A stretch of DNA of 64,000 nucleotides. Source: Halomonas sp. Its GTDB lineage: Bacteria; Pseudomonadota; Gammaproteobacteria; Pseudomonadales; Halomonadaceae. The stretch covers positions 62,001-126,000 of the forward strand of contig NZ_JAGOBJ010000007.1 of the NCBI RefSeq assembly GCF_017983445.1. The letters run 5' to 3'. Shown in pieces: positions 4,700 through 41,528 of the stretch. Positions within the stretch are counted from its first letter, which is position 1; each line of letters opens with the position of its first letter. Both the position numbers and the translations under genes were made by a program. The notes under the pieces were generated by a model that was not told where the DNA came from, ran no database searches, and saw only the letters and a program-made list of their open reading frames with translations.

Positions 4700-5242
4700 A
4701 TACAATTCCTAATGTTCAGCGACCTTTGATGGTCTGTTTTTTTATGTCGCGCTGAAGATGTGGCGTGTCTCAACGAGCCAGCCTATGTGCAGGATCTGGC
4801 GCAATCAACATAGCATGTAAAGTGCCTGTCAGGAACGCTCCTGGTGCCTACGATGGTTTGGCTCACGCTAGCCCCGCGGCTACCTCTCATACGACTTTTC
4901 TGGCCTAGCAACCCTCCCCGAATATAAACAAACCCAATAACAATAATCGCTAATGTTAAAACGTTATTAAACGTTCGTTTTATTAACCCTTCGTCTTATT
5001 ATTATTCACTCATTATCATGGGATGATTTGGGCTTAGCAAAGCTGCACTTGTTTATTTTTAAACTGTCTTGCCCTTTACTAAAGAACTTACTTTTAACAG
5101 CACGAATAATTTATAAAAAAGTATTCATCAGCTAGTGATCGCTTTTTTATAACTTTATTTTGAATATTTAGCAGCCAAGTGGTTGTCACAAACAATTTGA
5201 TCATCAACGCCTTCTAATAAACTTAAAAAAGGATAATGCACC
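4700..5242. promoter_or_regulatory. Divergent AT-rich intergenic region between TAXI operon and nhaD
   Basis: About 540 bases without a gene, markedly AT-rich in the right half. It must hold the promoters of the leftward TAXI operon and the rightward nhaD gene. A direct pair of AACGTT palindromes separated by ATTA lies near 4959-4975, possibly an operator. An AAGGA at 5229-5233 serves the nhaD start. I could not choose a convincing promoter hexamer pair. Confidence 0.4.
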
Positions 5243-6718
5243 ATGCTGACGCAGCGCCATGATTCAGGCCAGCCACGAGCTTCTCGTCGCTGGCTTTTTT
5301 TGTTGACCACTTTACTATCTTTTTATAGCACCTCGACCTTGGCTGTCACCGGAGAGCTCGATTTAACCTCATCAGGCGTCGGCTTTTTTGCTGTCGCGGT
5401 CTTTGTTCTAGCATATGCCTTGGTAATGGCAGAAGAAAAAATCCATATGCGCAAGTCCAAGCCGGTCTTGGTGGCGGCGGGGATTATCTGGTGCCTGATC
5501 GGTTGGGTGTATGTTCAAAACGGCATGTCCGACACGTCAGAATACGCATTTCGCATGACGCTTTTAGAGTTTACCGAGCTGATGCTGTTTCTGCTGGTCG
5601 CGATGACCTATATCAACGCCATGGAAGAGCGCCGGGTATTCGATGCCTTACGTTCCTGGATGCTGCGTAAAGGGTTTAGCTATCGCTCGCTATTCTGGCT
5701 GACCGGCGGCCTGGCCTTTGCTCTCTCCCCGGTTGCCGATAACTTGACCACCGCCCTACTCATGTGTGCAGTCATTACCAAAGTTGCTGAAGGCGATACG
5801 CGGTTTATCAATCTAGCGTGCATCAATATTGTCGTTGCCGCCAATGCGGGCGGGGCGTTTAGCCCGTTTGGCGACATTACCACGCTGATGGTATGGCAAG
5901 CGGGGATCATCCATTTCCAGGAGTTCTTTACGCTCTTCTTGCCCTCTCTGGTCAATTTCTTGATCCCTGCCGTGGTGATGAGCCTGTGCATCAAGAATCA
6001 AAAGCCCACCAGCGTGTATGAAGATGTCCAGCTTAAGCGTGGCGCCCGACGCATCATCGGACTTTTTTTACTCACGATTGCCACCGCCGTAATGTGTCAT
6101 ACGTTCCTGGACTTGCCGCCGGTGCTCGGCATGATGACCGGGCTTGGCTATCTTCAGTTCTTTGGCTATTACCTGCGCACAAGCTTACCGCGATCGCTTG
6201 AGCGCAAACGGGAACGTTATAGCCGCTGCGGCGATAAGCAGAAACTGGCACAGCTGGGTAGCGTCGTCCCGTTCGATGTATTCAACCGCGTGGCGCGGGC
6301 CGAGTGGGATACCCTGCTGTTTTTCTATGGCGTGGTCATGTGCGTGGGCGGCCTTGGGTTTATGGGCTATCTGAGCCTGCTGTCCGACGCGCTTTATACA
6401 AACTGGGATGCCACCTGGGCCAACATTGTGCTTGGAGTGGTCTCCGCCGTGGTCGATAACATTCCGGTGATGTTTGCCGTTCTGACCATGCAGCCGGAAA
6501 TGTCGCACGGCCACTGGCTGCTGATTACGCTAACCGCGGGGGTTGGAGGAAGCCTGCTTTCCATTGGCTCTGCCGCAGGCGTTGCGGTAATGGGTCAGGC
6601 AAGAGGTTCTTACACGTTTATGGGCCATTTACGCTGGACACCGGTGATTGCGCTGGGCTATGTCGCCAGTATTGCCGTTCATCTGTGGCTTAATGCAGGC
6701 AGCTTTACCAACTATTGA
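5243..6718 (+). CDS. nhaD: NhaD-type Na+/H+ antiporter
   Basis: 491-residue inner-membrane Na+/H+ antiporter of the NhaD family (ion-transporter superfamily), which expels Na+ (and Li+) using the proton gradient and supports growth in salt and alkali. A signal-peptide-like N-terminus (RRWLFLLTTLLSFYSTSTLA) is followed by about 12 membrane segments. Conserved stretches include SPVADNLTTALLMCAV, NIVVAANAGGAFSPFGDITT and the C-terminal AVVDNIPVMFAVLTM with GGSLLSIGSAAGVAVMG. The Asp-Asn pairs in VADN and VDN are of the type needed for Na+ binding in the superfamily. It is transcribed alone; a bidirectional terminator follows. Confidence 0.95.
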   Translation: MLTQRHDSGQPRASRRWLFLLTTLLSFYSTSTLAVTGELDLTSSGVGFFAVAVFVLAYALVMAEEKIHMRKSKPVLVAAGIIWCLIGWVYVQNGMSDTSEYAFRMTLLEFTELMLFLLVAMTYINAMEERRVFDALRSWMLRKGFSYRSLFWLTGGLAFALSPVADNLTTALLMCAVITKVAEGDTRFINLACINIVVAANAGGAFSPFGDITTLMVWQAGIIHFQEFFTLFLPSLVNFLIPAVVMSLCIKNQKPTSVYEDVQLKRGARRIIGLFLLTIATAVMCHTFLDLPPVLGMMTGLGYLQFFGYYLRTSLPRSLERKRERYSRCGDKQKLAQLGSVVPFDVFNRVARAEWDTLLFFYGVVMCVGGLGFMGYLSLLSDALYTNWDATWANIVLGVVSAVVDNIPVMFAVLTMQPEMSHGHWLLITLTAGVGGSLLSIGSAAGVAVMGQARGSYTFMGHLRWTPVIALGYVASIAVHLWLNAGSFTNY

Positions 6719-6752
6719 TACGGGCTCGGTAAGGCAGGCTTATCACGTTTAT

Positions 6753-6777
6753 ATAACGCCCTGGCTCAGGGCGTTAT
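6753..6777. terminator. Bidirectional hairpin between nhaD and a GGDEF/EAL gene
   Basis: Perfect 11-bp stem (ATAACGCCCTG paired with CAGGGCGTTAT) with a GCT loop in the 64-base gap between two convergent genes. The U-tract is weak on both sides, but the position makes a shared terminator likely. Confidence 0.7.
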
Positions 6778-6782
6778 CGCTT

Positions 6783-9392
6783 TCAATAGCTCTCAAACAA
6801 GTATTCGATGGGAGTGGGCCGCCCAAACAGATAGCCCTGATAACGGTAACAGCCATGGCCCTTTAGCCAATCCAGCTGCTCTTTTTTCTCCACGCCTTCG
6901 GCTACCACGGTTAACCCCAGGCTCACGGCCAGAAGGATGGTGGTATCCACAATCGCTGCATCGGCCTTATCGGTCAGCAGCTCGCGAATAAACGATTGAT
7001 CAATTTTCAGCTCATCCAGCGGCAATCGCTTAAGGTAGCTCAACGAAGAGTAACCCGTACCAAAGTCATCAATGGCAAAACGGATACCTTGAGCACGCAG
7101 TTTTAGCATCGTATTGCGTACCCGTGTAGGCTCGTGCATCAGCAGACTTTCGGTTACCTCCAGCACCAGCCGCCCTGGCGGCGCCTGAGTCTGGGCGAGC
7201 AGCCCCTCCAGGTTGCGTACAAACTCCGGCTGCTGGAACTGAACGGAGCTAACGTTGACTGAGATGGTCAGCGCCGCATAAGAGGCTTGATTGGCCCATT
7301 TGGCAAGCTGTTCACAGGCGGACTGAAGCACCCAATAGCCAATGGGTATAATGAGCCCATTCTCTTCCGCCAGAGGAATAAAGGTGCACGGCGATACCCA
7401 GCCACGCTGAGGGTGATACCAGCGCAAAAGCGCTTCTACGCCGATCGTTTTGCCTTGATGGTCAACCTGTACCTGATAGTGCAGCGCAAGCTCCTTGCGC
7501 TCCAGGGCGTGACGTAAATCGCCTTCTAGGTTGGTCCGCTCAATAAGGCTGGTTTGCATGTCCTGATTAAAAAAGCGCAACGTGCCGCCACCCGCCGTCT
7601 TGGCCTGCTGTAACGCCAGGTCGGCCTGCTGCAGCACGCTGTTCATAGTGTGATCGGCACCATCGAACAGCGCAATGCCGATGCTCGCATTGACCGGTAG
7701 CGAACGGTTGGCACGCAGCTGGGCAACGGCATCCAGTAATTGCCGGGCAGCACGCTCAGCGCTTAATGCCGCTTCGGCTTGATGCTCGCCGAGTCTTGCC
7801 AGAAGGGCAACAAACTCATCACCACTGAAGCGCGCAAGTACCGCGCCTTCGGGTAAATGCTGGCGCAGCTGTTTGGCAACCTCGATTAACAGCTGGTCGC
7901 CACTTTCATGGCCCTGTATATCGTTGACCAAGTGGAAATTATCCAGGTCGATCACTAATAATGCGCTATATGGACGCGTGGTATTTTCCTGCTCGATTTC
8001 CCAGGTTAGCGACTCCATCAATAAACGCCGGTTGGGCAGCCCGGTCAGCACATCGTAAAACGCCAGATGATTGGTACGCGACTGCATCTCCAGGTAGTCC
8101 GTCATCTCGGTTGAAATGCCGCACAGACTGGCAGGCGTGCCTGGCGACAAGACCAGTGGCATTTTGATAGTTAGAAACGTACGCACCTGATCGCTATTTT
8201 GCAGAACATTGTTCTCTTCAATGGTTATCTTTTTACCTGACTCTATTACGCTGCGATCGACCTGCGCAATTTCATGCGCGGTCGTGCTATCAAAAAATTC
8301 CTCATCGCTTTTGCCCAGGATTTGCTCTGCCGGTAAACCAAAGAGCTCACTCACTTTCTGGTTTACAAACTGATAATGCAGGGACGGCGTTTTAATATAG
8401 ATATACGCATCAACGCTATCCAGAATGGTTGCCAGCATCAATTTATTGGCGTTGAGCTGCTCGCGGTTAGACGCAATGTGCCGTTTCAACCACAGTGCAG
8501 TGCCCAGCACGATAATGCAGCAAACGGCCAGTAGCCCCAGGCACCACCACAGCCAGGCGGGAATAGCGGCTGGAGGCGGCGCTTCAGCCCGCCAGGCACG
8601 CAGCGTGCTGAAATACTCAGAATGAGGGTCGCGCTTCCAGCGAAGCAGCACCTGGTCAATACGCTCCAGTACCGTTTTCGATAAAGTGGGCGAGCCCGCG
8701 AAGAAAAGCCGAATCGGCTGAAAGATAATGGCCGTCTCATACAGGCCGTAATTATGCGCGCGCCAGTCGCCAAACAGATGATCGGAAACCGCCAGATCAG
8801 CCTGGCCCATCGCGACGGCCTGGAAAGCTTGCGCATAGCTATCCACCGCCATCCAGGAGACCATCACGTCAAAGCGTTCAGTCACCGCTGCCAGATAATT
8901 TTGCTGAATGGACCCCTGCACCACTGCAATACGCTTGTTCTCAAGGTCAAGGATCGCCTCAACCCCCTCGCCTTCATGCTGGTAAAGCTGCGACCAGCTG
9001 TGCATCACCGGCTCATTATGAAAAGCCAGGCGTCTGGCGCGTTCTTCACTCCAGGCGACATCCGGCACAAGATCGATATCGCCTTGCGCAAGCAGATCAA
9101 GACAGTGCTGGAATTCACAGGCGATGCTTTCAAGCTGCCAATCTTCCTGCTTGGCAATCGCTTCAAGCAGCTCACCCAAAATACCTCTTAGCTGTCCCTT
9201 ATCGTCGACAAATAGTTTGGGAGGATTGTGATAGACCCCAACTAATAAAGTCTCGTTCGCCATGCTTGAAAAAGCCAAGCTGCATGATCCAAGCAACATA
9301 CCTGCATTGAAGGCCCACCGCCGAGGGCGGTTTACAGCCCCCGCGTTTTTAGGCGAACGCAGCATTCTCCGTGAGGCAAACATCGCGAGCAT
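6783..9392 (-). CDS. Membrane c-di-GMP enzyme: SBP3 sensor-PAS-GGDEF-EAL
   Basis: 869-residue bifunctional cyclic-di-GMP protein. In order: an N-terminal signal/anchor region; a periplasmic extracellular solute-binding family 3 domain (about residues 48-270, with ETLLVGVYHNPPKLF and DIDLVPDVAWSEERA); one membrane helix (about 278-302); a PAS domain (about 315-435); GGDEF (about 440-605, signature SGDEF at 523-527); and EAL (about 620-865, E653 in VEALLRW, plus DDFGTGYSS and AEGVE). The SGDEF variant is commonly still active. The sensor probably binds an amino-acid-like ligand that tunes synthesis or breakdown of c-di-GMP. It starts 8 bases after the glutathione transferase gene, so the two may be co-transcribed. 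Confidence 0.93.
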   Translation of the reverse strand: MLAMFASRRMLRSPKNAGAVNRPRRWAFNAGMLLGSCSLAFSSMANETLLVGVYHNPPKLFVDDKGQLRGILGELLEAIAKQEDWQLESIACEFQHCLDLLAQGDIDLVPDVAWSEERARRLAFHNEPVMHSWSQLYQHEGEGVEAILDLENKRIAVVQGSIQQNYLAAVTERFDVMVSWMAVDSYAQAFQAVAMGQADLAVSDHLFGDWRAHNYGLYETAIIFQPIRLFFAGSPTLSKTVLERIDQVLLRWKRDPHSEYFSTLRAWRAEAPPPAAIPAWLWWCLGLLAVCCIIVLGTALWLKRHIASNREQLNANKLMLATILDSVDAYIYIKTPSLHYQFVNQKVSELFGLPAEQILGKSDEEFFDSTTAHEIAQVDRSVIESGKKITIEENNVLQNSDQVRTFLTIKMPLVLSPGTPASLCGISTEMTDYLEMQSRTNHLAFYDVLTGLPNRRLLMESLTWEIEQENTTRPYSALLVIDLDNFHLVNDIQGHESGDQLLIEVAKQLRQHLPEGAVLARFSGDEFVALLARLGEHQAEAALSAERAARQLLDAVAQLRANRSLPVNASIGIALFDGADHTMNSVLQQADLALQQAKTAGGGTLRFFNQDMQTSLIERTNLEGDLRHALERKELALHYQVQVDHQGKTIGVEALLRWYHPQRGWVSPCTFIPLAEENGLIIPIGYWVLQSACEQLAKWANQASYAALTISVNVSSVQFQQPEFVRNLEGLLAQTQAPPGRLVLEVTESLLMHEPTRVRNTMLKLRAQGIRFAIDDFGTGYSSLSYLKRLPLDELKIDQSFIRELLTDKADAAIVDTTILLAVSLGLTVVAEGVEKKEQLDWLKGHGCYRYQGYLFGRPTPIEYLFESY

Positions 9393-9400
9393 AATAAGGA

Positions 9401-10072
9401 TTACTCGCCAGGCATGGTAAGTGGTCCGGCACGCTCGATTACCCGCTGCCAGGCAGGGTCGGCTTCAATGCGCTCAACAAAACCTGCAATGGCTGGATAT
9501 GCTGCCAAAGATCGAGCTGCCTGCATGGCCTGAAGAGGAAAACTCATTTGAATATCGGCACCGCTTGGCCATTCACCAGCAAAATTACCTTTTTGAGCCA
9601 GGTGATGTTCGATAAAACCTAAATGTTGTTTGAGCTGAGGATTTAAGAAGCGCTGACTAACCTTATCGTTAATTCCCTTGGCCAGAGGCTTAATAAACCA
9701 TGGCGATTGTTTAGACACTTGTTTGAATACCAGCTGCATGACTAATAAAGGCATTAAAGAGCCTTCGGCATAGTGCAACCAATACCGATAGTCAACCCAC
9801 TCATGAGTGTCATCAGGAGAAGGTTGTAAACGGCCACGTCCATACGCTTGTATTAAATAATCAATAATAGCGCCCGACTCTGCGACCACAAGATCACCAT
9901 CCGAAATAACCGGTGATTTGCCCAAAGGATGAATGTCTTTTAATGCTTCAGGCGCTTGCTGGGTTTTATTATTGCGCTGATAAACATGTATTTCATACTC
10001 TACTTCAAGCACTTCGAGAAGCCATAAAACTCGATGTGAACGCGATTTTTCCAAGTGATGAACGTGGATCAT
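9401..10072 (-). CDS. Glutathione S-transferase family protein
   Basis: 223-residue cytoplasmic protein with an N-terminal thioredoxin-like domain (MIHVHHLEKSRSHRVLWLLE; the SRSHRVLW segment is the glutathione-binding helix region) and the conserved ESGAIIDYL motif at the end of that domain. An all-helical C-terminal half follows (about residues 95-220). The ATG at 10072 has GGAG 6 bases upstream, which is better than the in-frame ATG at 10084. It lies directly upstream of the SBP3-PAS-GGDEF-EAL gene with an 8-base gap. Conjugation or reduction of small electrophiles is typical; the substrate is unknown. Confidence 0.9.
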   Translation of the reverse strand: MIHVHHLEKSRSHRVLWLLEVLEVEYEIHVYQRNNKTQQAPEALKDIHPLGKSPVISDGDLVVAESGAIIDYLIQAYGRGRLQPSPDDTHEWVDYRYWLHYAEGSLMPLLVMQLVFKQVSKQSPWFIKPLAKGINDKVSQRFLNPQLKQHLGFIEHHLAQKGNFAGEWPSGADIQMSFPLQAMQAARSLAAYPAIAGFVERIEADPAWQRVIERAGPLTMPGE

Positions 10073-10209
10073 ATAATACTCCATGGAAGCGACGTGCTAT
10101 GCAGGCTTTGCGCCCACGCCCGTTATCCTTTTCCTGCAAGCATATTCAGCTTAGCAGCGTTGCCTACCAGGGAGTAAATATCCAAGTAAAAAAGACTTAT
10201 ATTACCAAT

Positions 10210-10788
10210 TTACGCTCGAGGTACATGACGCAGGCGTATCCAGATATCCGACAGCGACCATTTACCTTGAAGCCAAGGCGATAAAAGGCGGGTCGAAAGC
10301 GGGATAAACACAAACACCATCATCGGCGTCAACATCAGAGTGCTTACCAGCACCCGAGGAATTAACATCCAATCACTTAATAAGTCGCCAAATACCCATT
10401 GAAAGAGCAGCGAGATGGGAAAAAACGCCAACCAGACGGCTACGGCCTGCTTCCAACGTGGTGGTGTGCGGCCTGAAGCAGTTTGAAACCAGGCGTCAAG
10501 CCCCGTGGCGCGATGTTCATGAGGAGCATCATAAAGCCCTTTACCACGCATTAGCCAAGCGTTGCGTGAAGCAGAATGCTCCCAAACATGCAGGGTTTCA
10601 CTACTGCTAAAGCGAAAGATAATCTGATATTCATCATCATGGTTGGGCGGTGCCAGTACCCCCGAACCCAGATAGCCGGGAAAATCAGCCGCCAGCTCGC
10701 GGCCTTCGTTCAACCAGCGGTTGAAATCATGATAGCGGCCGCTGGCAACGCGCCTAGCCACCATAAGAGTGACAGGTGAGGCAGACAT
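10210..10788 (-). CDS. Antibiotic-biosynthesis-monooxygenase-domain membrane protein
   Basis: 192 residues. The N-terminal part (about 1-100, PVTLMVARRVASGRYHDFNRWLNEG) matches the ABM ferredoxin-like fold. The C-terminal part has two or three hydrophobic helices (AVAVWLAFFPISLLFQWVF and LVSTLMLTPMMVFVFIPL), a combination often annotated as an ABM-domain membrane protein. AGGAG lies just upstream of the ATG at 10788, so I reject the longer open frame starting at 10839. Function is unknown; an association with heme or quinone chemistry is only known for other members of the fold. Confidence 0.8.
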   Translation of the reverse strand: MSASPVTLMVARRVASGRYHDFNRWLNEGRELAADFPGYLGSGVLAPPNHDDEYQIIFRFSSSETLHVWEHSASRNAWLMRGKGLYDAPHEHRATGLDAWFQTASGRTPPRWKQAVAVWLAFFPISLLFQWVFGDLLSDWMLIPRVLVSTLMLTPMMVFVFIPLSTRLLSPWLQGKWSLSDIWIRLRHVPRA

Positions 10789-11146
10789 GGTATATCTCCT
10801 AGTAGTGCCACAGCCGATGCCGGGTAGGCAGGCTGTCAATTGACAGGCGGGTAAGCCTGAAAGTATTTATGGCATCAATGATGGGCGCATTATATAGGCA
10901 ACTTATGGGTAATGTACTATCCATTTAATAGATCTGACCCCATTAGCATCAACTAATGAATATCCATTAATACTGATTAATTGGTCAACATTAACCCTGT
11001 CAAATAAATGAGACAGTAAAAAAGTAGTAAAGAAGGAACAGCGGTTTAAAGCAGGACTTTTTACATGATAACGATGTAATCAAAACACGCCCGCAAATCT
11101 AGAGAGTTGCAGACTTTTGCTGATCACCATGAAAAACCAATTAAGG
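10789..11146. other. Intergenic stretch without a recognised gene
   Basis: About 358 bases, AT-rich in the middle. It presumably contains the promoter of the leftward ABM-domain gene and the terminator of the leftward DUF2835 gene is not needed here, since that gene ends at 11147 reading toward this region. I see no convincing open frame, tRNA or strong hairpin. Confidence 0.4.
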
Positions 11147-32781: not shown

Positions 32782-32858
32782 CGGAATATAGCTCAGCTTG
32801 GTAGAGCGCTGCCTTCGGGAGGCAGAGGTCGTAGGTTCGAATCCTGCTATTCCGACCA
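32782..32858 (+). tRNA. tRNA-Pro (anticodon CGG)
   Basis: 77 bases including an encoded CCA end. The acceptor stem CGGAATA pairs with TATTCCG. D-arm GCTC/GAGC, anticodon stem CTGCC/GGCAG with loop TTCGGGA (anticodon CGG, reading CCG), and T-arm GTAGG/CCTGC with TTCGAAT loop are all intact. A terminator follows directly, and the accessory-looking PrpF cluster begins less than 100 bases further on. Confidence 0.97.
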
Positions 32859-32873
32859 GACATCAAGAAAAAA

Positions 32874-32904
32874 GGACTCCATCATCGATGGGGTCCTTTT
32901 TTTT
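32874..32904 (+). terminator. Rho-independent terminator after tRNA-Pro
   Basis: 10-bp stem (GGACTCCATC with GATGGGGTCC, one G-T pair) and ATC loop, followed by eight T residues. It closes the tRNA transcript. Confidence 0.9.
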
Positions 32905-32953
32905 GTGACATCGTTTCGTCAGCGTCACCCAAAGGCGGCTTCACCCCGAGCGC

Positions 32954-34168
32954 CTAAAACACAGCTTCGTGCTGCGCCTCGAGGGCGCGCAATAGAGCTC
33001 CCGAGGGCTGATACAGGGGCGCGTACCCCGCCAGCAGTACCTGCGCACTGCGCTGATAAGCGGCGGATTCAATGATGACCGTATCATCACCCTGCTTCCG
33101 AGCAACAATCTTGGTGGCCAGAATGCCGGCCGGATTTTCGATGGCGACGTCTATCTCGGTGCTGACCGCGGTGAGGGCCTTGGGTGCCAGTCGATGAGCC
33201 ACCGTCCCAGGCACCAGCGTGGCTGCGGCTAGACAGCAGCCACCGGATACGGCAAGCGATCCGTGAAACGTCTGAGGGGTCAGGTAGCGCACGCAGATAT
33301 CGCCGCCTTGACGCGCTTCTCCTACCAGGCAGACCTTGGGTACCGTTTCGCTTCGCGCGAGCTCTTCCCGAGACATGAGCGTGCCATCGGCGTGACGCAA
33401 CCGCATCCTCTCTCCCGCCGCGACCCATACCCTCTTCAAGTGTTCCATAAAGGCCGTGTCGGCGCTCAGCTGCGCGACGCTTTCATGCCCCGTCCTGCCA
33501 ACATCGGCGGCCTTGATGATAACCATGGGGACAGCTACGTCGACACAGCTTACTTCGACACCTTCGATCAAGTCCACGGCATTGCCCGTCGGAAGCAAGG
33601 CGCTGGTCTTTGCCCCAACGGGCGACTGCAGGAAGAGCTCGACGGCGGGATGGGCGCCCATCACTCCGGGAATGGACGCCATGGCGAAGCCTTCGTCCGT
33701 GTTTCTCATGCGCGAGTGGCTAACGACCCCGGTATTGGTATTGTAGATCGTCAGGTGCTGCGTTTGCGCGGCGCTTGTCGCCACCAGCCCGGTATCAAGC
33801 GCCCATAACTGCAGAGCAGAAGACATGTTGCCGCAGTTGACGCTCCAATCGATGCGATCATGAGCGGCCGCAAGCTGAGCCAGCGTGCTGACCAGCCGCT
33901 CACCGGAAGTGGTGCGTTCGATATCGGCGAAGAAAACCTTGTTGCTCGTCGCCGGTCCGCGACCCAAGCCCGTCGTCTGGGTATTGCCCGGATAGTCCCC
34001 CTTCAAGGGCACTCCCATCACGTGACGCAGCAGCTCTTCACGCAGAGCCCTATCCCGAGGAGTGATTCTTTCCCACAGGATCGCACCCGTGGAGGTGCCC
34101 CCGCGCATGTAGTGAACCGGAAAGTGCCACACGTTCTGGTCACGATAGGGAGTGCGTGATTTCATCAT
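32954..34168 (-). CDS. PrpF-family isomerase/tautomerase (copy 1)
   Basis: 404-residue soluble protein of the PrpF family (diaminopimelate-epimerase fold), whose characterised members isomerise 2-methylaconitate or tautomerise 4-oxalomesaconate. Key features: HYMRGGTSTGAILWE near the start, TSNKVFF, and NCGNMSSALQLWAL, carrying the conserved Cys-Gly-Asn loop. A second half repeats the fold (PMVIIKAADVG, SGGCCLAAATLVPGT). The start at 34168 has GAGGA 9 bases before it. It is the last gene of a run prpF2-ridA-GNAT-prpF1. No prpBCD methylcitrate genes are present, so propionate metabolism is not indicated. The substrate is unknown. Confidence 0.85.
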   Translation of the reverse strand: MMKSRTPYRDQNVWHFPVHYMRGGTSTGAILWERITPRDRALREELLRHVMGVPLKGDYPGNTQTTGLGRGPATSNKVFFADIERTTSGERLVSTLAQLAAAHDRIDWSVNCGNMSSALQLWALDTGLVATSAAQTQHLTIYNTNTGVVSHSRMRNTDEGFAMASIPGVMGAHPAVELFLQSPVGAKTSALLPTGNAVDLIEGVEVSCVDVAVPMVIIKAADVGRTGHESVAQLSADTAFMEHLKRVWVAAGERMRLRHADGTLMSREELARSETVPKVCLVGEARQGGDICVRYLTPQTFHGSLAVSGGCCLAAATLVPGTVAHRLAPKALTAVSTEIDVAIENPAGILATKIVARKQGDDTVIIESAAYQRSAQVLLAGYAPLYQPSGALLRALEAQHEAVF

Positions 34169-34295
34169 GCCTGGGGATCCTCGTACTCTACTTGACAATG
34201 CCGGTTATCGGTTTGGAAACCGTGCAGCAGACCGATCAAGCTCGCCGCTTGGCTGGGAAGCCGCCGGCATAGAGCGACCTTGCGCACGGGAGGCG

Positions 34296-34769
34296 TTACA
34301 ACTTGAGTTTGTAACCCAAATGGCTGTTTTCAAAGCCCAGTCGTTCGTAAAACCGATGGGCATCGGGCCGCTCGATATCAGTGGTCAGTTGAACCAGCTC
34401 GCACCCACGATCACGGCACTCATCGATCGCCCGCTGAAACATCTGCTGCCCGAGTCCCGAGCTCCGCTGCGCCGATGCAATACGCACGCCTTCGATCTGC
34501 CCACGCCAGGCGCCCTGCCGCGCGAGTCCCGGAATGAACGTGAGCTGAAGCGTACCTACGAGCTCATCTCCTGCCAGCGCCACGAGCTGCAGCTGATTGG
34601 GATCGGCATCGATGGCGTCGAATGCCGCCCTGTAGAGCGGGTTCAAAGGGCTGCCCACATCCTCGCGTTGGCGCCCCAGTACGTCGTCGGCCAGCAAGGC
34701 AACGATGCTGGCCACATCGTCGCTTCGAGCACGCCTAAACTGAATCGTCAGAGTCATTCGCTTCTCCAT
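34296..34769 (-). CDS. GNAT-family N-acetyltransferase
   Basis: 157-residue acetyltransferase. The acetyl-CoA loop is seen in IASAQRSSGLGQQMFQRAI (R/Q-x-x-G-x-G/A pattern at RSSGLGQ), followed by CELVQLTTDIERPDAHRFYERLGFENSHLGYKL, the usual C-terminal strand-helix-strand. Similar proteins acetylate amino groups of small molecules. It lies between ridA and prpF1 in the same direction (62- and 127-base gaps), so it may modify an amino substrate or intermediate of the cluster, or detoxify it. Confidence 0.85.
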   Translation of the reverse strand: MEKRMTLTIQFRRARSDDVASIVALLADDVLGRQREDVGSPLNPLYRAAFDAIDADPNQLQLVALAGDELVGTLQLTFIPGLARQGAWRGQIEGVRIASAQRSSGLGQQMFQRAIDECRDRGCELVQLTTDIERPDAHRFYERLGFENSHLGYKLKL

Positions 34770-34831
34770 GGAAAAGACGCCCGAGCGCCTGAATCAACGC
34801 AGCGTCGGTCGAACCGCCTCCTGCTGTCGCT

Positions 34832-35212
34832 TTAAATCACCGCCGCCTGCAACGCAATCTCAACGGCGAACTGAGAGCGTCCCGGCGTCGATTCGATGCA
34901 GGAACGGGAGGGCGCGCAGCCTTTTGGCATCCACGCATTCCAGACGCTGTTCATGCGGGGGGCGTGCTCGACGTCCTTGAGCCAAACGGTAGCGGTCAGA
35001 ATACGCGTTTTATGAGAGCCCGCCTGCTCGAGCCAACCATCGATGCGCGTCAGAATGTTCTGTGTCTGCTCTTCGACCGTGCCGTTCGAGTCCTCCGCCA
35101 GCGTACCGCTGATATAGACAATACCATGGTGAACGAGAATGCGGCTCAAGCGATCTTCGGTTTCAAAGCGCTGGATATCGTCCTGTCGGGCGATGTGAGT
35201 AGTATCGAACAT
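34832..35212 (-). CDS. RidA-family (YjgF/YER057c) enamine/imine deaminase
   Basis: 126-residue protein. RidA family members hydrolyse reactive 2-aminoacrylate-type enamines or imines. The Arg in CAPSRSCIES and the Glu in FAVEIALQAAV sit at the positions of the catalytic Arg105 and Glu120 of RidA. The HHGIVYISGTLA strand is also typical. I chose the ATG at 35212 (AAGGA upstream) over the much longer frame to 35395, which would overlap prpF2. Its start practically touches the prpF2 stop (35215), so the two are co-translated. It suits a pathway with a PLP enzyme that can release enamines. Confidence 0.88.
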   Translation of the reverse strand: MFDTTHIARQDDIQRFETEDRLSRILVHHGIVYISGTLAEDSNGTVEEQTQNILTRIDGWLEQAGSHKTRILTATVWLKDVEHAPRMNSVWNAWMPKGCAPSRSCIESTPGRSQFAVEIALQAAVI

Positions 35213-35214
35213 GA

Positions 35215-36393
35215 TCAGCTTTCCTTTTTGGCGGGCTCGCTGGTTGAAAACAAAGGGACGTAGACCGTCCCTTCCATGAGAAGTCGAGAGGTACGGCCGA
35301 GGGTGACGGACAGGATCGAAGGCGAATGCCCCTGCACGGAGCGAATATTCACCTCGATCACGCCGGAGGCATGGCCGATACGCACTCGCTGGCATGCTGC
35401 AGGGGCAAGCCTTGCCATTTGGTTGACGATGGACCCTTCAAGCACCGCAGCGGCGGCCGTGGCAATGGAGCCCGTCACTTCGTAGGCGTGGTGAAGCTTT
35501 CCCATCGAGACACCCCGGGCGACGAGATCGATCGCATCGGCCTCGATCGTTTGCTCGCCGACGACGCGATGCGTCACGCCCCGGCTGACAAAGGCGATCT
35601 TGGGAAGCGCTGGCGTCGCTGCTGCTGCGTCGTCGGCCCGCGTACACAGGCCAAGCCGTATGGCAACGGCGCCGCGTATCGCCTCCAACCGCGACAGCAG
35701 TTCCGGCCGGGCGTCGACGTCTGCCTTGGACTCGGTACCCGAAAGCCCCAAATCCTCGGCGCGCACGAAGGCCATGACCATACCGGCATCAATGACACTG
35801 ACCTCAAGAACACCGACGCCGGGGACATCGACCGTGTCGACGATGCAACCTGTCGGCAGCAGGGTACCGAAGGAGCTACCGGCGGGGTCGACAAATTCGA
35901 GATCGATCCTGGCACCGCTTCCCCGAACTCCGTCGATGCAATACTCCCCCGCTTCGACGGGTATGCCCTGTTCGACGGGCACGTGGGCAATGATGCGGCG
36001 GGCCGTGTTCTCCTGCCAAATACGCACCTCGGTGATGCCTTCCTGGGGCTCGACCAGTCCGGCGCGCAGGGCGTAGGGGCCGATCGCCGATGAAAGATTT
36101 CCACAGTTGGCGGTGTAGTCGACGATGGGGCGCTCGACGTCCACTTGGGCGATGAGATAGTCCACGTCACAGTCATCCCGTGCGGAAGCGCCGACGAGCG
36201 CGACCTTGCTGGTGCTCGAGCTTGCGCCTCCCATGCCATCCATCTGCTTGCCGTAGGGGTCAGGGCTGCCCATCAGCGCAAGCAGAAGAGCGTCTCGCTG
36301 CGCCGGGCCTGCGGGCAGATCTTCTCGCAGAATGATCAGGCCCTTGCTCGTTCCGCCACGAACAAAGGCTGCCGACACGCTGATTGTCGTCAT
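35215..36393 (-). CDS. PrpF-family isomerase/tautomerase (copy 2)
   Basis: 392-residue paralogue of the product of 32954-34168. It has AAFVRGGTSKGLIILRED, GGASSSTSKVALV and NCGNLSSAIGPYALRAGLV with the same Cys-Gly-Asn loop, and a second-half GKLHHAYEVTGSIATAAAAVLEGS segment, as in 4-oxalomesaconate tautomerase-like members. The start at 36393 follows an AGGGGAAA. It heads the operon prpF2-ridA-GNAT-prpF1, behind an operator-like palindrome at 36496-36510. Two divergent paralogues in one operon suggest two isomerisation steps or a heteromer; the reactions are unknown. Confidence 0.87.
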   Translation of the reverse strand: MTTISVSAAFVRGGTSKGLIILREDLPAGPAQRDALLLALMGSPDPYGKQMDGMGGASSSTSKVALVGASARDDCDVDYLIAQVDVERPIVDYTANCGNLSSAIGPYALRAGLVEPQEGITEVRIWQENTARRIIAHVPVEQGIPVEAGEYCIDGVRGSGARIDLEFVDPAGSSFGTLLPTGCIVDTVDVPGVGVLEVSVIDAGMVMAFVRAEDLGLSGTESKADVDARPELLSRLEAIRGAVAIRLGLCTRADDAAAATPALPKIAFVSRGVTHRVVGEQTIEADAIDLVARGVSMGKLHHAYEVTGSIATAAAAVLEGSIVNQMARLAPAACQRVRIGHASGVIEVNIRSVQGHSPSILSVTLGRTSRLLMEGTVYVPLFSTSEPAKKES

Positions 36394-36495
36394 AAGCGTT
36401 TCCCCTTTTAATACGTCGATGGCACAGGGCATCACACTCGCAGCCAAAGGGCGCCATCTAAATCTGCTTTAAAGTCTCTACTAAAGAGACTATGA

Positions 36496-36510
36496 TTTCT
36501 TTAATTGAAA
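36496..36510. promoter_or_regulatory. Operator-like palindrome before prpF2
   Basis: TTTCTTTAATTGAAA, followed 1 base later by ATGCTAGCCGATAG. The same pair of elements in the same order stands before the symporter gene (40106-40120 with ATGCTAGC at 40144-40151). Probable binding site of the IclR regulator encoded between them. Confidence 0.55.
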
Positions 36511-36602
36511 CATGCTAGCCGATAGCGCACTCTCAGTCAATTGCGCCGCGAACCGCTTCCTTGCGACGCGCCTTTATCGGCGACGATGGTCGATCAGCGG
36601 GC

Positions 36603-36635
36603 AAAAAAAACCGCTCGCAAGAATGATGCGAGCGG
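36603..36635 (-). terminator. Terminator of the iclR-aldolase unit
   Basis: On the minus strand, CCGCTCGC pairs with GCGAGCGG around a 9-base loop, followed by eight T residues (36603-36610). It lies 41 bases beyond the aldolase stop and separates that unit from the prpF2 operon. Confidence 0.85.
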
Positions 36636-36676
36636 CGGAAAACAGGGGGGCGATCCGTGAGCAGCCTGCGCTCCGA

Positions 36677-37825
36677 TCAGCGGCCTCTTGCCTGGATAGG
36701 CCAGATCGCCGTCAATGTCTCCCCTTTCACGACATGCAGTTGGTCGTATAGATTGATGGTGGGGTCGCAATGGGGCACCTGGACTTCGACGAGGCTGCCC
36801 AGAGCCAATGCTTCCCCCGCGGCAAGCGTGATCTGACCGTGCTCATCGCTGGTGGCGCGGTATTCACTACCGGCAGGCGCACCACGCGTGATGCGCGGCT
36901 CCATGCCGTACTTACTTGCCAGCCGCTTCTCGCCGCCATCAGTGGTCACGCTGCCAGCATGATTGGCGCTGATGACCGCCGTCGCCATGAAGAGACTGGG
37001 CGCGAACAGCGGCACGCCGGTGCCGTCCGGGTCGACCGCGTCGTATTCGGTGTCCATCAGGGCGTAGCTGCCGCACTGCAGCTCAGTATAGGGCCCGTCG
37101 ATCTCTTGGAGCAGCGCTCCTGTGCTGCCACCCGTGACCCACTCGATCGCCTGGCCGCGCATCTGTTCGACGGCCCGCTTCACCGCGCCCAGCGTATTGC
37201 CCGCCAACGCCGCTTCCCGCTGCCGCTCGCGCGCATCCCAGCAGTGCGAAAGATGGCCTGCATACCCTTGAAGGCCGACCAGCCGCACGCCCCGAGTCGC
37301 CTCAATCGTCGCGGCCAGCGCAGCGGCCTGTCGCGGCGAGGCAACACCGGCTCGGTGCCGCCCCATGTCGACATCGATCAGAACGTCAAGTGTCACCTGG
37401 CTCGCATACGCCAGCGCGCCGAGCCGGGATACCACTTCCGAATGATCGACAACGCAGGCAAGCCTTACGCCCTGCGCTTTCAACTTCACCGCCCGCCGAA
37501 AGGCGCCCTCGGTGGCGAAGGTCGAGGTACATAAGATGTCGTCGATACCGGCGCTGGCAAAACATTCGGCTTCCCCAAGCGTGGCCACACAGATGCCCAC
37601 AGCCCCGACGGCCAACTGTCGATGAGCGATCTCGGGACACTTATGCGCCTTGGCGTGAGGGCGCAAGGCGATACCGGCACGATCGCACAGCGCCTGCATC
37701 TTGCTCATATTGGCGTGCAGCACGTTTTCGTCGATCAGCAGGGCAGGGGTTACTAGCCGACGACGCGCATCGGCCACGTGAACAAGATCGGCGTTGATGA
37801 CCGACAAAGCGTTTGAAACATTCAT
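36677..37825 (-). CDS. D-threonine-aldolase-type PLP enzyme (alanine racemase fold III)
   Basis: 382-residue PLP enzyme of the D-threonine aldolase/D-serine dehydratase family. The PLP Lys is in PHAKAHK (residues 56-62, most likely Lys59). A TIM-barrel N-terminal domain is followed by a beta domain ending with VPHCDPTINLYDQL, where His352 and Asp354 give an H-x-D metal motif as in D-threonine aldolase, rather than the H-x-C of D-serine dehydratases. It may cleave a D-beta-hydroxy amino acid to glycine plus an aldehyde, or act like D-3-hydroxyaspartate aldolase. It is 25 bases downstream of iclR, with AAGGAGG before its ATG. Confidence 0.85.
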   Translation of the reverse strand: MNVSNALSVINADLVHVADARRRLVTPALLIDENVLHANMSKMQALCDRAGIALRPHAKAHKCPEIAHRQLAVGAVGICVATLGEAECFASAGIDDILCTSTFATEGAFRRAVKLKAQGVRLACVVDHSEVVSRLGALAYASQVTLDVLIDVDMGRHRAGVASPRQAAALAATIEATRGVRLVGLQGYAGHLSHCWDARERQREAALAGNTLGAVKRAVEQMRGQAIEWVTGGSTGALLQEIDGPYTELQCGSYALMDTEYDAVDPDGTGVPLFAPSLFMATAVISANHAGSVTTDGGEKRLASKYGMEPRITRGAPAGSEYRATSDEHGQITLAAGEALALGSLVEVQVPHCDPTINLYDQLHVVKGETLTAIWPIQARGR

Positions 37826-37850
37826 GTTTCTTGCCTCCTTGAAGATGGAC

Positions 37851-38630
37851 TTACCCGTTCCCGGCCATCTCCGCAGAAAGCAGGTACTGGTGGATCGGCG
37901 TAAACCGCTCCATGATCACGGGTATTGCCGACTGCATCGACTCACGGCTCCAGCGATCGGCGGGTCCGGAAATGGTCAAGGCGTTAAAGGTTCCATCAAA
38001 CCCGGCCAGCGGAATCGAGACGGAGCCCACGCCCGGGGTGCGCGTCCCTACCCCGATAAAGAAGCCATCTTGGCGAGTACGCTCGATGTCCCTTTGAAGA
38101 GCGTTGACATCGACCCCCTGTTCCAGCGCGTACTCGAGCTGGGGCGCGAGCTCTTTTGGCGATAGACAGGCGAGCAGCGCGCGCCCCGTTTCCCCCGCAA
38201 ACGCCGGGTGATTCTCGCCAATGGGGATAACGCGGCGCACCGGATGCGTGCCTTCGGCGACGTCGACACACACCCGGCGATGACCACTGAGCATGTGCAG
38301 CGATACCGTTTCGCCAAAACGCTCGACAAGCTCTTGCATCACGGGACGCAATATACTGCCAAGATCGAAACGTCTAGCGACGGATACGCTCATCGCCACC
38401 AGCCGTGGCCCAACGCGGTAACCGCCGCCCTCTTCCTGACGCGCCACGTAACCGGCGCTTTCGAGCGACCGCAGCAGCCGATAGACAATACTGCGATGCA
38501 GTTCGGCCACTGCCGAGACGCGCTCAAGCGATACCGACTCCTCGGCATCGACGATCACGTTCAGTACGGTCAACGCCCGATCCACCGTTTGCGATCCACC
38601 ACTAGAGGCTTGCTTCATTGAAGAACTCAT
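37851..38630 (-). CDS. IclR-family transcriptional regulator
   Basis: 259-residue DNA-binding regulator. The N-terminal winged helix (about 12-75, TVDRALTVLNVIVDAEESVSLERVSAVAELHRSIVYRLLRSLESAGYV) is followed by the IclR effector domain (about 85-255, including HPVRRVIPIGENHPAFAGETGRALLACLS). The start is uncertain (38630 or 38618; no strong ribosome site). It is co-directional and co-transcribed with the aldolase gene, and sits between the symporter gene and the prpF2 operon, both of which have the shared operator-like motif. It probably controls the whole cluster in response to the substrate. Confidence 0.9.
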   Translation of the reverse strand: MSSSMKQASSGGSQTVDRALTVLNVIVDAEESVSLERVSAVAELHRSIVYRLLRSLESAGYVARQEEGGGYRVGPRLVAMSVSVARRFDLGSILRPVMQELVERFGETVSLHMLSGHRRVCVDVAEGTHPVRRVIPIGENHPAFAGETGRALLACLSPKELAPQLEYALEQGVDVNALQRDIERTRQDGFFIGVGTRTPGVGSVSIPLAGFDGTFNALTISGPADRWSRESMQSAIPVIMERFTPIHQYLLSAEMAGNG

Positions 38631-38760
38631 GAAAGTCGGTTGAAACACAATGACCACCCGATGGGCGCTCTGCACCGGTCGGGTGAATCCAGCCGTAGAG
38701 TAGCACACCGGCTTCTAGCGCAAGAATCGGTTCAACGCGGCCAAGGATTCATCACGGCGT

Positions 38761-40017
38761 TTATGATGCGTTCTGAGCTGGCGTCTCCAACTCCTCAATG
38801 CTGCTACCCACAAGCCGGTTGGTCATGATCGCGCCGGTTAAGTCTCCCAGCACGTTGGTGGTTGTGGTGCCCATGTCGAAAAAGCGGTAGAAACCGGCAA
38901 CGATCATGCCGACTTCCAGCGGCAACCCCAGAAACTGAAGGGCGATCAAAATCTTGACGATACCGCTTCCCGGCACGCCGCCACCGATGAACGACACCAG
39001 AATCGAAATCAGGGCCGCCTTGATCAGGTACCCCAGGTTGACGTCGATTCCTGTCGCCAGGCCGGCGAACACGATTACCGCCGGGAACAACAGCGCATGT
39101 CCGTCGGAGTTGATTTGCGACCCCAGCGGGATGACGAAGTCACAAATTCGCTTTTTGACGCCGAATTTTTCGTGGGCGACCTTGATATTGACCGGAATCG
39201 AGGCAACGCTGCTGGTGGTCGCGATGGAGAACATCCAAAGGTTCGACGCCTTAGAGACGAAGGCCAGTGGGTTCATGCCCGTGGCAAGCCACACCGAAAT
39301 TCCATAGACGACGAAGACCTGCATCATGACCCCGGCATAGAACACGCCGAGCAGCACCGCCACGGCACCCAGTAGTGCCCCGCCGTTATGGCCGATGGTG
39401 CTGGCCATCAGGAAGAAAACGCCGATGGGCGACAGGGCAATGGCGATACGCAGATAGGCAAACACCCACTCGCTGATGATGCTCAGTCCCGCGGCGATCT
39501 TCGTGCGCGTCTCGACATTGGGAATCATCTTGACCGACAAGCCCAGCAACACCGAAATGACCAGCACCTGGATCATGTTGCCGTCAGCAAAGGAAGCGAA
39601 CAGGTTGTTCGAGACCAGTCCGGTGAAAAAACCGTCCAACGTGACTTCCGGGGTCTCGATTGGCGCGCCCGCGCTGCCAAGGTCCAGATCGAACCCCAAA
39701 CCCGGCTTGACAATGTAGGCCAGCCCACCCCCCAGGAATACCGCCACCAGCGTCGTGAACAGGTAATAAGGCAGGCAGGCGGCCACTACCTTACCGACCC
39801 CACCGGTGTGCCCGTTGCCCACAATCGCCTGCATCAGAATGATCAGTGCCAGAGGCACGATGATCAGCTTGATCAGGTTGATCAGGTTGAGCCACATGGT
39901 GCCGATGAACTTGAACCCGCTGACTTCGTTGGGAAAGAAAATGCCCGCCAATACACCCAGTATCAACGACAGAAATATCCAGGTGGTGAGCGAAATTTTT
40001 CTGGAGCGCAATGTCAT
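38761..40017 (-). CDS. SDF-family (DAACS) amino acid:cation symporter, predicted neutral substrate
   Basis: 418-residue inner-membrane symporter of the glutamate transporter fold, with about eight helices and two re-entrant loops. Signatures include the second hairpin GGGVPGSGIVKILIAL and helix 8 FFDMGTTTTNVLGD, with Asp381 as the amino-group ligand. The residue that is Arg397 in GltPh (DMGRT) is Thr384 here. In ASCT1-type neutral transporters the equivalent Arg is also lost, so a neutral amino acid rather than Glu/Asp is likely. AGGAG lies 7 bases before the ATG at 40017. It probably imports the substrate of the cluster. Confidence 0.9.
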   Translation of the reverse strand: MTLRSRKISLTTWIFLSLILGVLAGIFFPNEVSGFKFIGTMWLNLINLIKLIIVPLALIILMQAIVGNGHTGGVGKVVAACLPYYLFTTLVAVFLGGGLAYIVKPGLGFDLDLGSAGAPIETPEVTLDGFFTGLVSNNLFASFADGNMIQVLVISVLLGLSVKMIPNVETRTKIAAGLSIISEWVFAYLRIAIALSPIGVFFLMASTIGHNGGALLGAVAVLLGVFYAGVMMQVFVVYGISVWLATGMNPLAFVSKASNLWMFSIATTSSVASIPVNIKVAHEKFGVKKRICDFVIPLGSQINSDGHALLFPAVIVFAGLATGIDVNLGYLIKAALISILVSFIGGGVPGSGIVKILIALQFLGLPLEVGMIVAGFYRFFDMGTTTTNVLGDLTGAIMTNRLVGSSIEELETPAQNAS

Positions 40018-40355
40018 GTCTGTTCTCCTGCCTTTCGTTTTTTTGATTTTATTTTTCTCTTCACTCAAGACTCAGCCGAAGAAGCATGAAATCTGACCGA
40101 AAAGATTTCTATAATAGAAACGAACGTCTCATTAATGGAAATAATGCTAGCGATAGACTTTCCTGAGGTCAAATCTTTATTGCGTGGCACACTGACTCAC
40201 TGCATTAAAAATTGTGAACCGCGAAAGAGCCTGAGATATGAACTATCACTACGCTTCTAGAGACCTAAGTATTCTTTAATTAAATAGCCTGCTAACAGAC
40301 ATGTTAAGCTCGCTATCTGTACCGTTGCTTTCATTCTCATATTAGGAAAACGACC
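40018..40355. promoter_or_regulatory. Divergent promoter region between symporter and MFS genes
   Basis: About 340 bases without a gene, AT-rich. It holds the palindrome at 40106-40120 near the leftward symporter gene and should hold the rightward MFS promoter. No tRNA fragment or integration site repeat was seen at this apparent right edge of the accessory cluster. Confidence 0.5.
40106..40120. promoter_or_regulatory. Operator-like palindrome before the symporter gene
   Basis: Perfect 15-bp palindrome TTTCTAT-A-ATAGAAA, about 90 bases upstream of the symporter start. A second half-match (TTAATGGAAA) and ATGCTAGCGATAG follow at 40131-40156, mirroring the prpF2 upstream region. Confidence 0.6.
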
Positions 40356-41528
40356 ATTAACCGTTTAGCACATACAAAAGCCGTGCTGCTGTTTGCCAGC
40401 ACCATGACCGTGATGTCGGGCGCGATTATTGCGCCTGCCTTGCCGGGTATCAGCCGCCATTTTTCTGAACACTCTCAGGTACTGATTCAACTGATCCTGA
40501 CCCTTCCCGCGCTGATGATTACCCTATTCAGCCCGCTGATGGGCTATCTGGCCGACAGGTTTGGCCGCAAGCCGCTGCTTTTGCTGATGCTGTCCATTTA
40601 CGGGCTGGCGGGCGGGGCGGGGTTTTTGATTGATAGCGTGAATCTCTTATTGGCCTCACGGGCGCTGATGGGGGTAGCCGTGGCGGGCATTTTAAGTATC
40701 AGCACGACGCTGGTGGGCGACTATCTGGAAGGCTCTGAGCGGGTACGCTTTCTGGGCTTGCAGAGTAGCTGTATGGCGCTGGGCGGGGTGGTGTTTATCA
40801 ACCTGGGCGGGGTGCTCTCCGACTGGAGTTGGCGAGGGCCTTTCCTGCTTTACCTGACCGGGGTATTCCTGCTGCCCTACGCCTGGGCGATGCTCAAGGA
40901 GCCTCATGCCCAGAGTGGCGGGCAGGCAGGTCACGCCACGGCGCCGGTCAACGTCGACTTTATGCGTACCGGGATTGCCTATTTCGTGGGCATGTTGAGC
41001 ATGATGATGTTTTACATGTTCCCTGCCCAGCTGCCGTTTCTACTCTCCGAACAGGGTGAGATCAGCGGTATAGCCATCGGGATTGCCCTTTCCACCGCCG
41101 CCTTGACGGCGAGTGTTGTGTCGTTCTGCTACGGCTACTACAAACCCTTTTTATCGGTGATCACGATCTATGTCGCCGGCTTTGTATTAGCAGCCGCGGG
41201 CTTTTTGGTCGTTGGGCTTACCGAAAGCTATGCCATGGCGATTGTCGGTGCGGCCCTTTCCGGCTTTGGCCTGGGCGCCTTCATGCCCAACACGACCGCA
41301 TGGCTGATGCGTATTACGCCGCAGCGAGTGCGTGGCCGTGTATTTGGTGGTTTTACCGCGACTTTCTTCTTTGGCCAGTTTATCTCGCCAATTGCGGTAG
41401 CCCCTGCGATTACCTGGCTGGAGTCACTGCGCAACGTCTACACGGGCATGGCAGTGCTCTGCTGCGTGTTGGCCGTGATACTGGCTATCCTGGGCAAGAC
41501 GCTGTTACGCGCCGACAGCAAACTCTAG
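40356..41528 (+). CDS. MFS exporter (Bcr/CflA-like), probable ATT start
   Basis: Major facilitator superfamily protein of about 390 residues with 12 hydrophobic helices. Loop 2-3 carries GYLADRFGRKPLLL, the family signature A. Helix 1 has ASTMTVMSGAIIAPALPGI, typical of drug exporters. The first in-frame GTG (40383) has no Shine-Dalgarno sequence and cuts into helix 1. Nine codons earlier an ATT (40356) stands 8 bases after AGGA (40344-40347) and gives the MFS-like N-terminus (M)NRLAHTKA, so I favour that rare start. Function as an efflux pump is inferred; the gene stands alone. Confidence 0.85.
   Translation: MNRLAHTKAVLLFASTMTVMSGAIIAPALPGISRHFSEHSQVLIQLILTLPALMITLFSPLMGYLADRFGRKPLLLLMLSIYGLAGGAGFLIDSVNLLLASRALMGVAVAGILSISTTLVGDYLEGSERVRFLGLQSSCMALGGVVFINLGGVLSDWSWRGPFLLYLTGVFLLPYAWAMLKEPHAQSGGQAGHATAPVNVDFMRTGIAYFVGMLSMMMFYMFPAQLPFLLSEQGEISGIAIGIALSTAALTASVVSFCYGYYKPFLSVITIYVAGFVLAAAGFLVVGLTESYAMAIVGAALSGFGLGAFMPNTTAWLMRITPQRVRGRVFGGFTATFFFGQFISPIAVAPAITWLESLRNVYTGMAVLCCVLAVILAILGKTLLRADSKL

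Follow-up and report, generated by a model that had tools for sequence, protein, structure and literature searches.

A putative IclR-controlled module combining a D-threonine-aldolase-type enzyme with PrpF and Rid proteins behind a tRNA gene of Halomonas sp.

Here we examine seven genes on the minus strand (positions 32954-40017) of a 64-kb stretch of DNA from Halomonas sp., referred to as the window, which encode members of known families and probably form a co-regulated catabolic module that is new as a combination. Candidate operators shared by two transcription units, the presence of the genes as one block and the conservation of their order in a second species leave us highly confident that the seven constitute one co-regulated module. 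Its function is proposed more tentatively: our preferred reading, which may well prove wrong, is that of a horizontally exchanged, IclR-controlled module for the catabolism of a neutral beta-hydroxy amino acid, most likely D-configured, or of a mixture of related ones.

Results

Layout of the seven genes

Open reading frames and Pfam matches bear out the seven genes, their common strand and the families that an earlier note, made from the letters of the window, had named. In the order of transcription they are:

38761-40017, minus strand: SDF-family symporter, 418 residues (Pfam PF00375; alignment to Asp/Glu transporters)
37851-38630, minus strand: IclR-family regulator, 259 residues (start at 38630 assumed)
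36677-37825, minus strand: D-threonine-aldolase-type pyridoxal 5'-phosphate (PLP) enzyme, DSD1 family, 382 residues
35215-36393, minus strand: PrpF1, 392 residues (Lys63 and Cys97 kept; sister to canonical PrpF in the tree)
34832-35212, minus strand: Rid-family protein, 126 residues (closest to Rid2 members, whose conserved Arg aligns with Arg103)
34296-34757, minus strand: GNAT acetyltransferase, 153 residues (start assumed)
32954-34168, minus strand: PrpF2, 404 residues (start assumed; on a deep PrpF branch of its own; retains the catalytic Lys and Cys)

The PrpF domain scores 181 and 395 bits in the two proteins, the Ribonuc_L-PSP (Rid) domain 72 bits and the GNAT domain 68 bits; the other Pfam families found are Ala_racemase_N with D-ser_dehydrat, IclR and SDF. 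Terminator-like and promoter-like sites between the aldolase and PrpF1 genes divide the cluster into two transcription units, symporter–IclR–aldolase and PrpF1–Rid2–GNAT–PrpF2, the latter with gaps of 2 bases (PrpF1–Rid), 74 bases (Rid–GNAT) and 127 bases (GNAT–PrpF2) on the assumed gene starts. The proposal of the earlier note that the seven genes are one system is supported by tandem operators, block presence and gene order in Halomonas sp. 707D7, a sister species, and has to be amended in that they form two transcription units and not one operon.

Candidate IclR operators at both promoters

The sites that bear on common regulation, of which terminator and promoters were called as consensus matches, are:

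40144-40172, minus strand: promoter-like site 1, TTGACC-17-TAGCAT, upstream of the symporter gene; the same boxes occur in 707D7
40106-40141, minus strand: tandem 15-bp palindromes (40127-40141 and 40106-40120), candidate IclR operators of the symporter promoter
36610-36636, minus strand: intrinsic terminator-like site between the two units, with a counterpart in 707D7
36512-36540, minus strand: promoter-like site 2, TTGACT-17-TAGCAT, upstream of PrpF1, with a counterpart in 707D7
36475-36510, minus strand: tandem 15-bp palindromes (36496-36510 and 36475-36489), candidate IclR operators of the PrpF1 promoter

Each promoter carries two palindromes, TYTCNWTWRWNGARA, 21 bp apart from start to start and 1-2 bases past the -10 box, and this pattern, which was derived from the four sites, fits only these four places in the window (shuffled sequences gave a mean of 0.08 matches). 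A consensus has been published for group-1 operators of the IclR family, for which the portion of PMC8222616 available to us gives tandem spacings of 18-22, mainly 19-21; the tandem geometry of the candidate operators at both promoters is a match to this arrangement. With the group-1 core TTYCNNWWWNNGRAA, chosen with the sites in view, tandem pairs 18-22 apart and with at most three mismatches per pair gave three listings in the 64 kb at two places, which are the two promoters (one place is listed at two spacings), against a mean of 0.127 listings over 150 shuffles, 2 of which reached two or more. TTYC-N7-GRAA palindromes with centres 18-22 apart likewise occur near the promoters at no more than three mismatches per pair. 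Both sites at the PrpF1 promoter of 707D7 fit the palindrome pattern, and at its symporter promoter one site fits and the other is off by one central base, with the arms and the 21-bp spacing kept. We take both units to be one IclR regulon, in which the IclR protein would bind the candidate sites.

As a separate observation, the 707D7 symporter promoter (L181, contig C197, 1417-2545) is flanked by a GntR/FCD regulator gene and a cut gene start. The latter, a fragment on which Pfam gave no match, presumably resembles malonyl-CoA decarboxylase.

Borders, exchange and distribution of the module

The module and its surroundings are delimited as follows:

32782-32858, plus strand: tRNA-Pro(CGG), the 3' end of which is the left border of the module
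32859-40283, no strand assigned: exchangeable module; DNA homology with relatives G205 and G173 stops at 32858 and resumes at 40284 in G173
40383-41528, plus strand: MFS gene, the neighbour at the other side of the seven genes

In 707D7 (locus L100; G190 in the genome set) the genes for IclR, aldolase, PrpF1, Rid, GNAT and PrpF2 share a contig and follow the order seen in the window, up to the same tRNA-Pro and ispB. Protein identities to the window are 88% for IclR (partial), 89% for the aldolase, 83% for PrpF1, 97% for Rid, 84% for GNAT and 85% for PrpF2, and for the flanking genes 86% (IspB) and 92% (ObgE). Nonsynonymous divergence (dN) is well below synonymous divergence (dS) in the six genes compared, the symporter being left out, and Nei–Gojobori (NG86) ratios indicate the strongest constraint on Rid and the weakest on PrpF1. 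The symporter of 707D7 (95% identity over 351 residues) lies on another contig and is cut at the contig end, and we infer that it adjoins the other six genes.

Homology between the window strain and its relative G173 ends at the last base of the tRNA and restarts past the cluster, and the gap holds other genes, including one for a LysR regulator. G205 shows 94% DNA identity up to the tRNA and loses homology at the same base, and in G183 homology ends at 32873. As homology stops at the 3' end of tRNA-Pro and resumes beyond the cluster, the seven genes form one exchangeable unit; the block between the borders contains just these genes, and its G+C content is 59.5% vs 55.5% in the rest of the window. 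Since the tRNA gene is on the plus strand and the seven genes run towards it, the cluster ends at this convergent tRNA, so that the adjacency described in the earlier note is retained and the statement that the cluster starts there is reversed. The region behind tRNA-Pro(CGG) itself looks variable, with homology ending at most 15 bases from the tRNA end in all three relatives (G205, G173 and G183). An integrative element was considered and rejected: no repeat of at least 9 bases, on either strand, connects 32801-32900 with 39951-40500, and no integrase is found among the seven genes.

A search for the neighbourhood in Halomonadaceae and other proteobacteria, which the earlier note had put forward as a check, gave no support: the set is not widespread, and comparative genomics therefore adds little weight. 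The aldolase is present at E <= 1e-60 in 2 of 82 congeneric genomes, and single proteins gave no ortholog-level match in samples of the family, order, class and phylum, where the best identities were at most 38% for the aldolase (151 genomes of the family), 42% for PrpF2 and 47% for PrpF1. Loci were kept for 80 of 258 relatives, with flanks of up to 10 kb (several contigs being shorter); tblastn of the seven proteins against them found PrpF1, PrpF2, Rid and GNAT only in 707D7, IclR in two loci (L100 and L148) and SDF in one (L176).

The aldolase and its relatives

The aldolase carries the Ala_racemase_N and D-ser_dehydrat domains that mark the D-threonine aldolase/DSD1 family, and its best solved relatives are D-threonine aldolases, among them that of Alcaligenes xylosoxidans (AxDTA; 4v15, 216 bits). 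It resembles the latter in domain pair, PLP lysine, metal-binding His/Asp and catalytic His. Eleven of the twelve AxDTA residues named in the accessible text of PMC4401734 are kept in the printed alignment, as judged by eye (K59, R158, Y188, H194, T235, Q250, S253, Y261, D327, H352 and D354). Among these are the PLP lysine K59, the metal pair H352/D354 and the base H194, roles which the same text assigns in AxDTA to Lys59, His347/Asp349 and His193. These residues, with their H-x-D metal pair, support D-specific retro-aldol cleavage as read from the alignment, in keeping with the enzyme type first suggested, a D-beta-hydroxy-amino-acid aldolase, and aldolase activity is a likely prediction.

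The nearest aldolases outside the module are 70, 59, 53 and 53% identical (70% being the best after 707D7 in the scan of relatives' contigs), and all four, from Billgrantia, Afifella, Neorhizobium and Agrobacterium, are encoded beside MmgE/PrpD and hydantoinase A/B genes. When two more distant, chosen aldolases are added, five of six have hydantoinase A/B as neighbours and none of six an annotated or matched PrpF. Queries with HyuA, HyuB and MmgE matched just two of the 80 relatives' loci (L101 and L102), and the hydantoinase link is therefore one of near relatives and not of the family. Because these near relatives sit with hydantoinase and MmgE/PrpD genes, the aldolase of the module appears to have been taken up into a new gene context. 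A recurrent MmgE/PrpD–HyuA–HyuB–D-threonine aldolase set was observed in L101 (Billgrantia endophytica, 4770-11116; hydantoinase A/B caprolactamase-like), L102, L034 and L035, with differing transporters; no PrpF, Rid or IclR was matched in L101 and L102 or annotated in L034 and L035. This set possibly encodes a lactam or hydantoin route without prior characterisation.

Symporter and regulator

Aligned with Asp/Glu transporters, the symporter has Thr at the position of a conserved Arg and keeps the neighbouring Asp and Asn. In aspartate transporters this Arg presumably binds the side-chain carboxylate and the Asp and Asn hold the amino-acid backbone; the exchange of the Arg with Asp and Asn retained suggests a neutral amino acid, the substrate type named at the outset, and import of such a substrate is predicted with reasonable, if lesser, confidence than the aldolase activity. 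Glyoxylate sensing by the IclR protein was tried as an idea and rejected: compared with E. coli IclR, eight of nine ligand positions (PMC11323563) are changed, which is a hint only, as the alignment is gappy.

The two PrpF proteins

Both PrpFs contain PF04303 and a Lys/Cys pair that matches Lys73/Cys107 of SoPrpF, which places them in the superfamily. SoPrpF variants at either residue are described, in the part of PMC5690661 available, as giving no growth on propionate alone, with no purified variant active, although C107 variants retained some function in a milder growth test. Neither module protein reaches the cut-off for methylaconitate isomerase (TIGR02334, 440.55; PrpF1 374.4 and PrpF2 89.9 bits) or for 4-oxalomesaconate tautomerase (NF033377, 440; PrpF1 317.2 and PrpF2 234.4 bits). 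The module shares the PrpF fold and Lys/Cys pair with the AcnD/PrpF methylcitrate branch, but no AcnD, aconitase or ring-cleavage partner occurs among the seven genes, in line with the absence of known PrpF partners pointed out in the earlier note. Elsewhere in the genome, on another contig, a separate prpF (735 bits, above the cut-off) is flanked by AcnD- and PrpD-type genes, so that the methylcitrate cycle can do without either module PrpF.

A 66-row tree (row L038 taken as a 747-residue reading, longer than the annotated gene) places PrpF1 as sister to the canonical PrpF clade, together with one plasmid row, and PrpF2 on a deep branch with two very distant rows, a position that is unsure given the long branches. 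At E <= 1e-95 PrpF1 is matched in 10 of 349 phylum genomes, the window genome included; in five of the nine others, with neighbourhoods of 8.9-14 kb, the matches are 58-74% identical to canonical PrpF vs 44-47% to PrpF1, and tblastn found no Rid gene in those five neighbourhoods. PrpF2 has, as its nearest solved structures, YbhH (154 bits) and LigU (149 bits). At E <= 1e-52 it has one relative of 42% identity (G1109) in 398 phylum genomes, at a contig end, and a 33.8% relative lies on an Acinetobacter plasmid, adjoining a sterol-desaturase gene. The G1109 protein (L188, 13-2631) was also seen to have a YhgA-like putative transposase gene as its neighbour (Pfam Transposase_31).

Rid and GNAT proteins

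The best PDB match of the Rid protein is PSPTO_0102, followed by Neisseria NMB1025 and, third among distinct sequences, PA5083; PSPTO_0102 and PA5083 are given as Rid2 proteins with imine deaminase activity in the available part of PMC5619798. Arg103, the equivalent of RidA Arg105 and the catalytic-type Arg expected of a Rid protein, is present, and with Rid2 members as its nearest relatives the protein is very likely, on these alignments, an imine deaminase. The closest PDB entry to the GNAT protein, 1z4e (147 bits), was deposited as a transcriptional regulator; an aminoalkylphosphonate acetyltransferase model is matched weakly, at 58.8 of 142 bits, as is phosphinothricin acetyltransferase (E 6e-4).

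Discussion

Under our preferred reading, the symporter would import a neutral amino acid, and the metal- and PLP-dependent aldolase would cleave a D-beta-hydroxy amino acid to yield glycine and an aldehyde. The same IclR would turn on the second operon for handling a related or derived compound: a PrpF proton move (an allylic or tautomeric shift) would give an enamine or imine, the Rid2-type protein would hydrolyse this to a 2-oxo acid and ammonia, and the second PrpF and the acetyltransferase might, as a guess, act on further or side products. We infer the retro-aldol activity, the neutral substrate and the imine hydrolysis, and the substrates given to PrpF and GNAT are guesses. The earlier note had RidA clear an enamine released by the PLP enzyme, which no longer holds: the metal pair is present, and an aldolase of this kind releases glycine and an aldehyde and neither enamine nor imine, so that an imine for Rid, if this protein is part of the route, must arise elsewhere, for which PrpF chemistry would be the likeliest source within the module. 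This coupling of PrpF to Rid is doubtful all the same, and still less probable is its specific form as a cofactor-free deamination pair, in which PrpF1 would move the double bond of a beta,gamma-unsaturated amino acid of vinylglycine type so that it becomes conjugated at the alpha-carbon, and Rid would hydrolyse the resulting enamine or imine to a 2-oxo acid and ammonia. A D-threonine pathway as such is unproven.

Several observations weigh against this reading. The aldolase itself makes no imine, has Ala in place of the AxDTA cofactor contact Gln81, and has its nearest counterparts elsewhere in loci with hydantoinases and MmgE/PrpD, not PrpF. Known PrpF substrates are di- and tricarboxylates, and a neutral-type symporter sits oddly with such a family. 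With regard to the operators, the core TTYCNNWWWNNGRAA was picked after the sites were known, a looser core (TTYCN7GRAA, at most two mismatches) gave 3 listings vs a shuffle mean of 0.75, with two or more in 30 of 150 shuffles, and a score scan with the full 17-base IclR consensus did not single out the sites in the window. Finally, only two species were found to carry the module.

Other explanations accommodate parts of these observations. Both operons would be joined in one linear route if one PrpF were an epimerase of the DapF/proline-racemase fold that converts an L-beta-hydroxy amino acid to the D-form for the aldolase, while Rid clears imines made en route. The Lys/Cys pair kept in both PrpFs speaks for this, but PrpF1 belongs to the second operon, apart from the aldolase, and we know of no PrpF-family racemase; we consider an epimerase rather unlikely. 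To the same degree we doubt a role in detoxification, in which the second operon would disarm a toxic amino-acid antimetabolite (e.g. of vinylglycine type), with acetylation by GNAT and destruction by PrpF and Rid, and the aldolase unit would use an amino acid that occurs together with it; the GNAT gene in the block with its weak acetyltransferase matches, and the patchy distribution, fit such a role, but 1z4e gives no substrate and the symporter would bring the poison in.

The terminator and separate promoter between the units, and the failure to find their co-occurrence outside two species, would also be expected of two units without a functional link that moved together and have a regulator in common by chance or through general nutritional control. 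This we consider unlikely, slightly more so than an epimerase or detoxification, since the two promoters, and no other place in the 64 kb, show the same tandem operator geometry, nothing but these genes lies between the borders of the block, and gene order is kept despite a divergence of 11-17% in five of the six proteins compared. Very improbable is a beta-hydroxyaspartate-cycle or other dicarboxylate route with a BhcC-like aldolase and a BhcR-like regulator. The cycle (BhcABCD/BhcR) likewise has a DSD1-family aldolase adjoining an IclR regulator, and BhcC and BhcR are the best NCBIfam names for the two proteins here; their scores, however (231.8 and 105.5 bits), fall far below the cut-offs of 690 and 350, at about a third of them, BhcA, BhcB and BhcD are not among the seven genes (the part of the genome searched for them), the symporter has no carboxylate-binding Arg, and eight of nine ligand positions of the regulator differ from E. 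coli IclR, within the limits of the gappy alignment.

Among known systems, a fold-III PLP enzyme together with RidA and a symporter has its best functional precedent, by analogy, in the ong cluster of Pseudoalteromonas for catabolism of an oxidised chitin monosaccharide (PMC9537276), an inducible locus which, like the one here, combines a PLP enzyme distantly related to D-threonine aldolases with RidA and a sodium symporter. All three are reported in the accessible part of that paper to be needed for growth, with the role of RidA left open; the same part presents OngC as a deaminase and the regulator as MurR/RpiR, and names no PrpF. The ong deacetylase OngB and kinase KdgK are not among the seven genes here. 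With the 4-oxalomesaconate tautomerase/isomerase systems (GalD, LigU) the module shares a PrpF2 whose nearest solved structures are YbhH and LigU, but no aromatic ring-cleavage gene is among the seven. A pathway that combines PrpF, Rid and a D-threonine-type aldolase was not found in titles and abstract starts of the open-licence literature, weak evidence of absence that agrees with the novelty surmised in the earlier note.

According to the abstract of PMC4401734, what D-threonine aldolases do in nature is still largely unknown. PrpF proteins without an assigned reaction also exist, e.g. YbhH, which the PDB labels a putative isomerase. A small, self-contained module in which an aldolase and PrpF proteins share one regulator is of value in this regard, as the inducer of its two promoters would point to the substrate. 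If the proposed pairing of PrpF and Rid is true, it would represent a new way to deaminate amino acids; in its specific form as a cofactor-free pair, this way would be free of PLP and of NAD (nicotinamide adenine dinucleotide) and would make an amino acid, as far as we know for the first time, the substrate of a PrpF protein.

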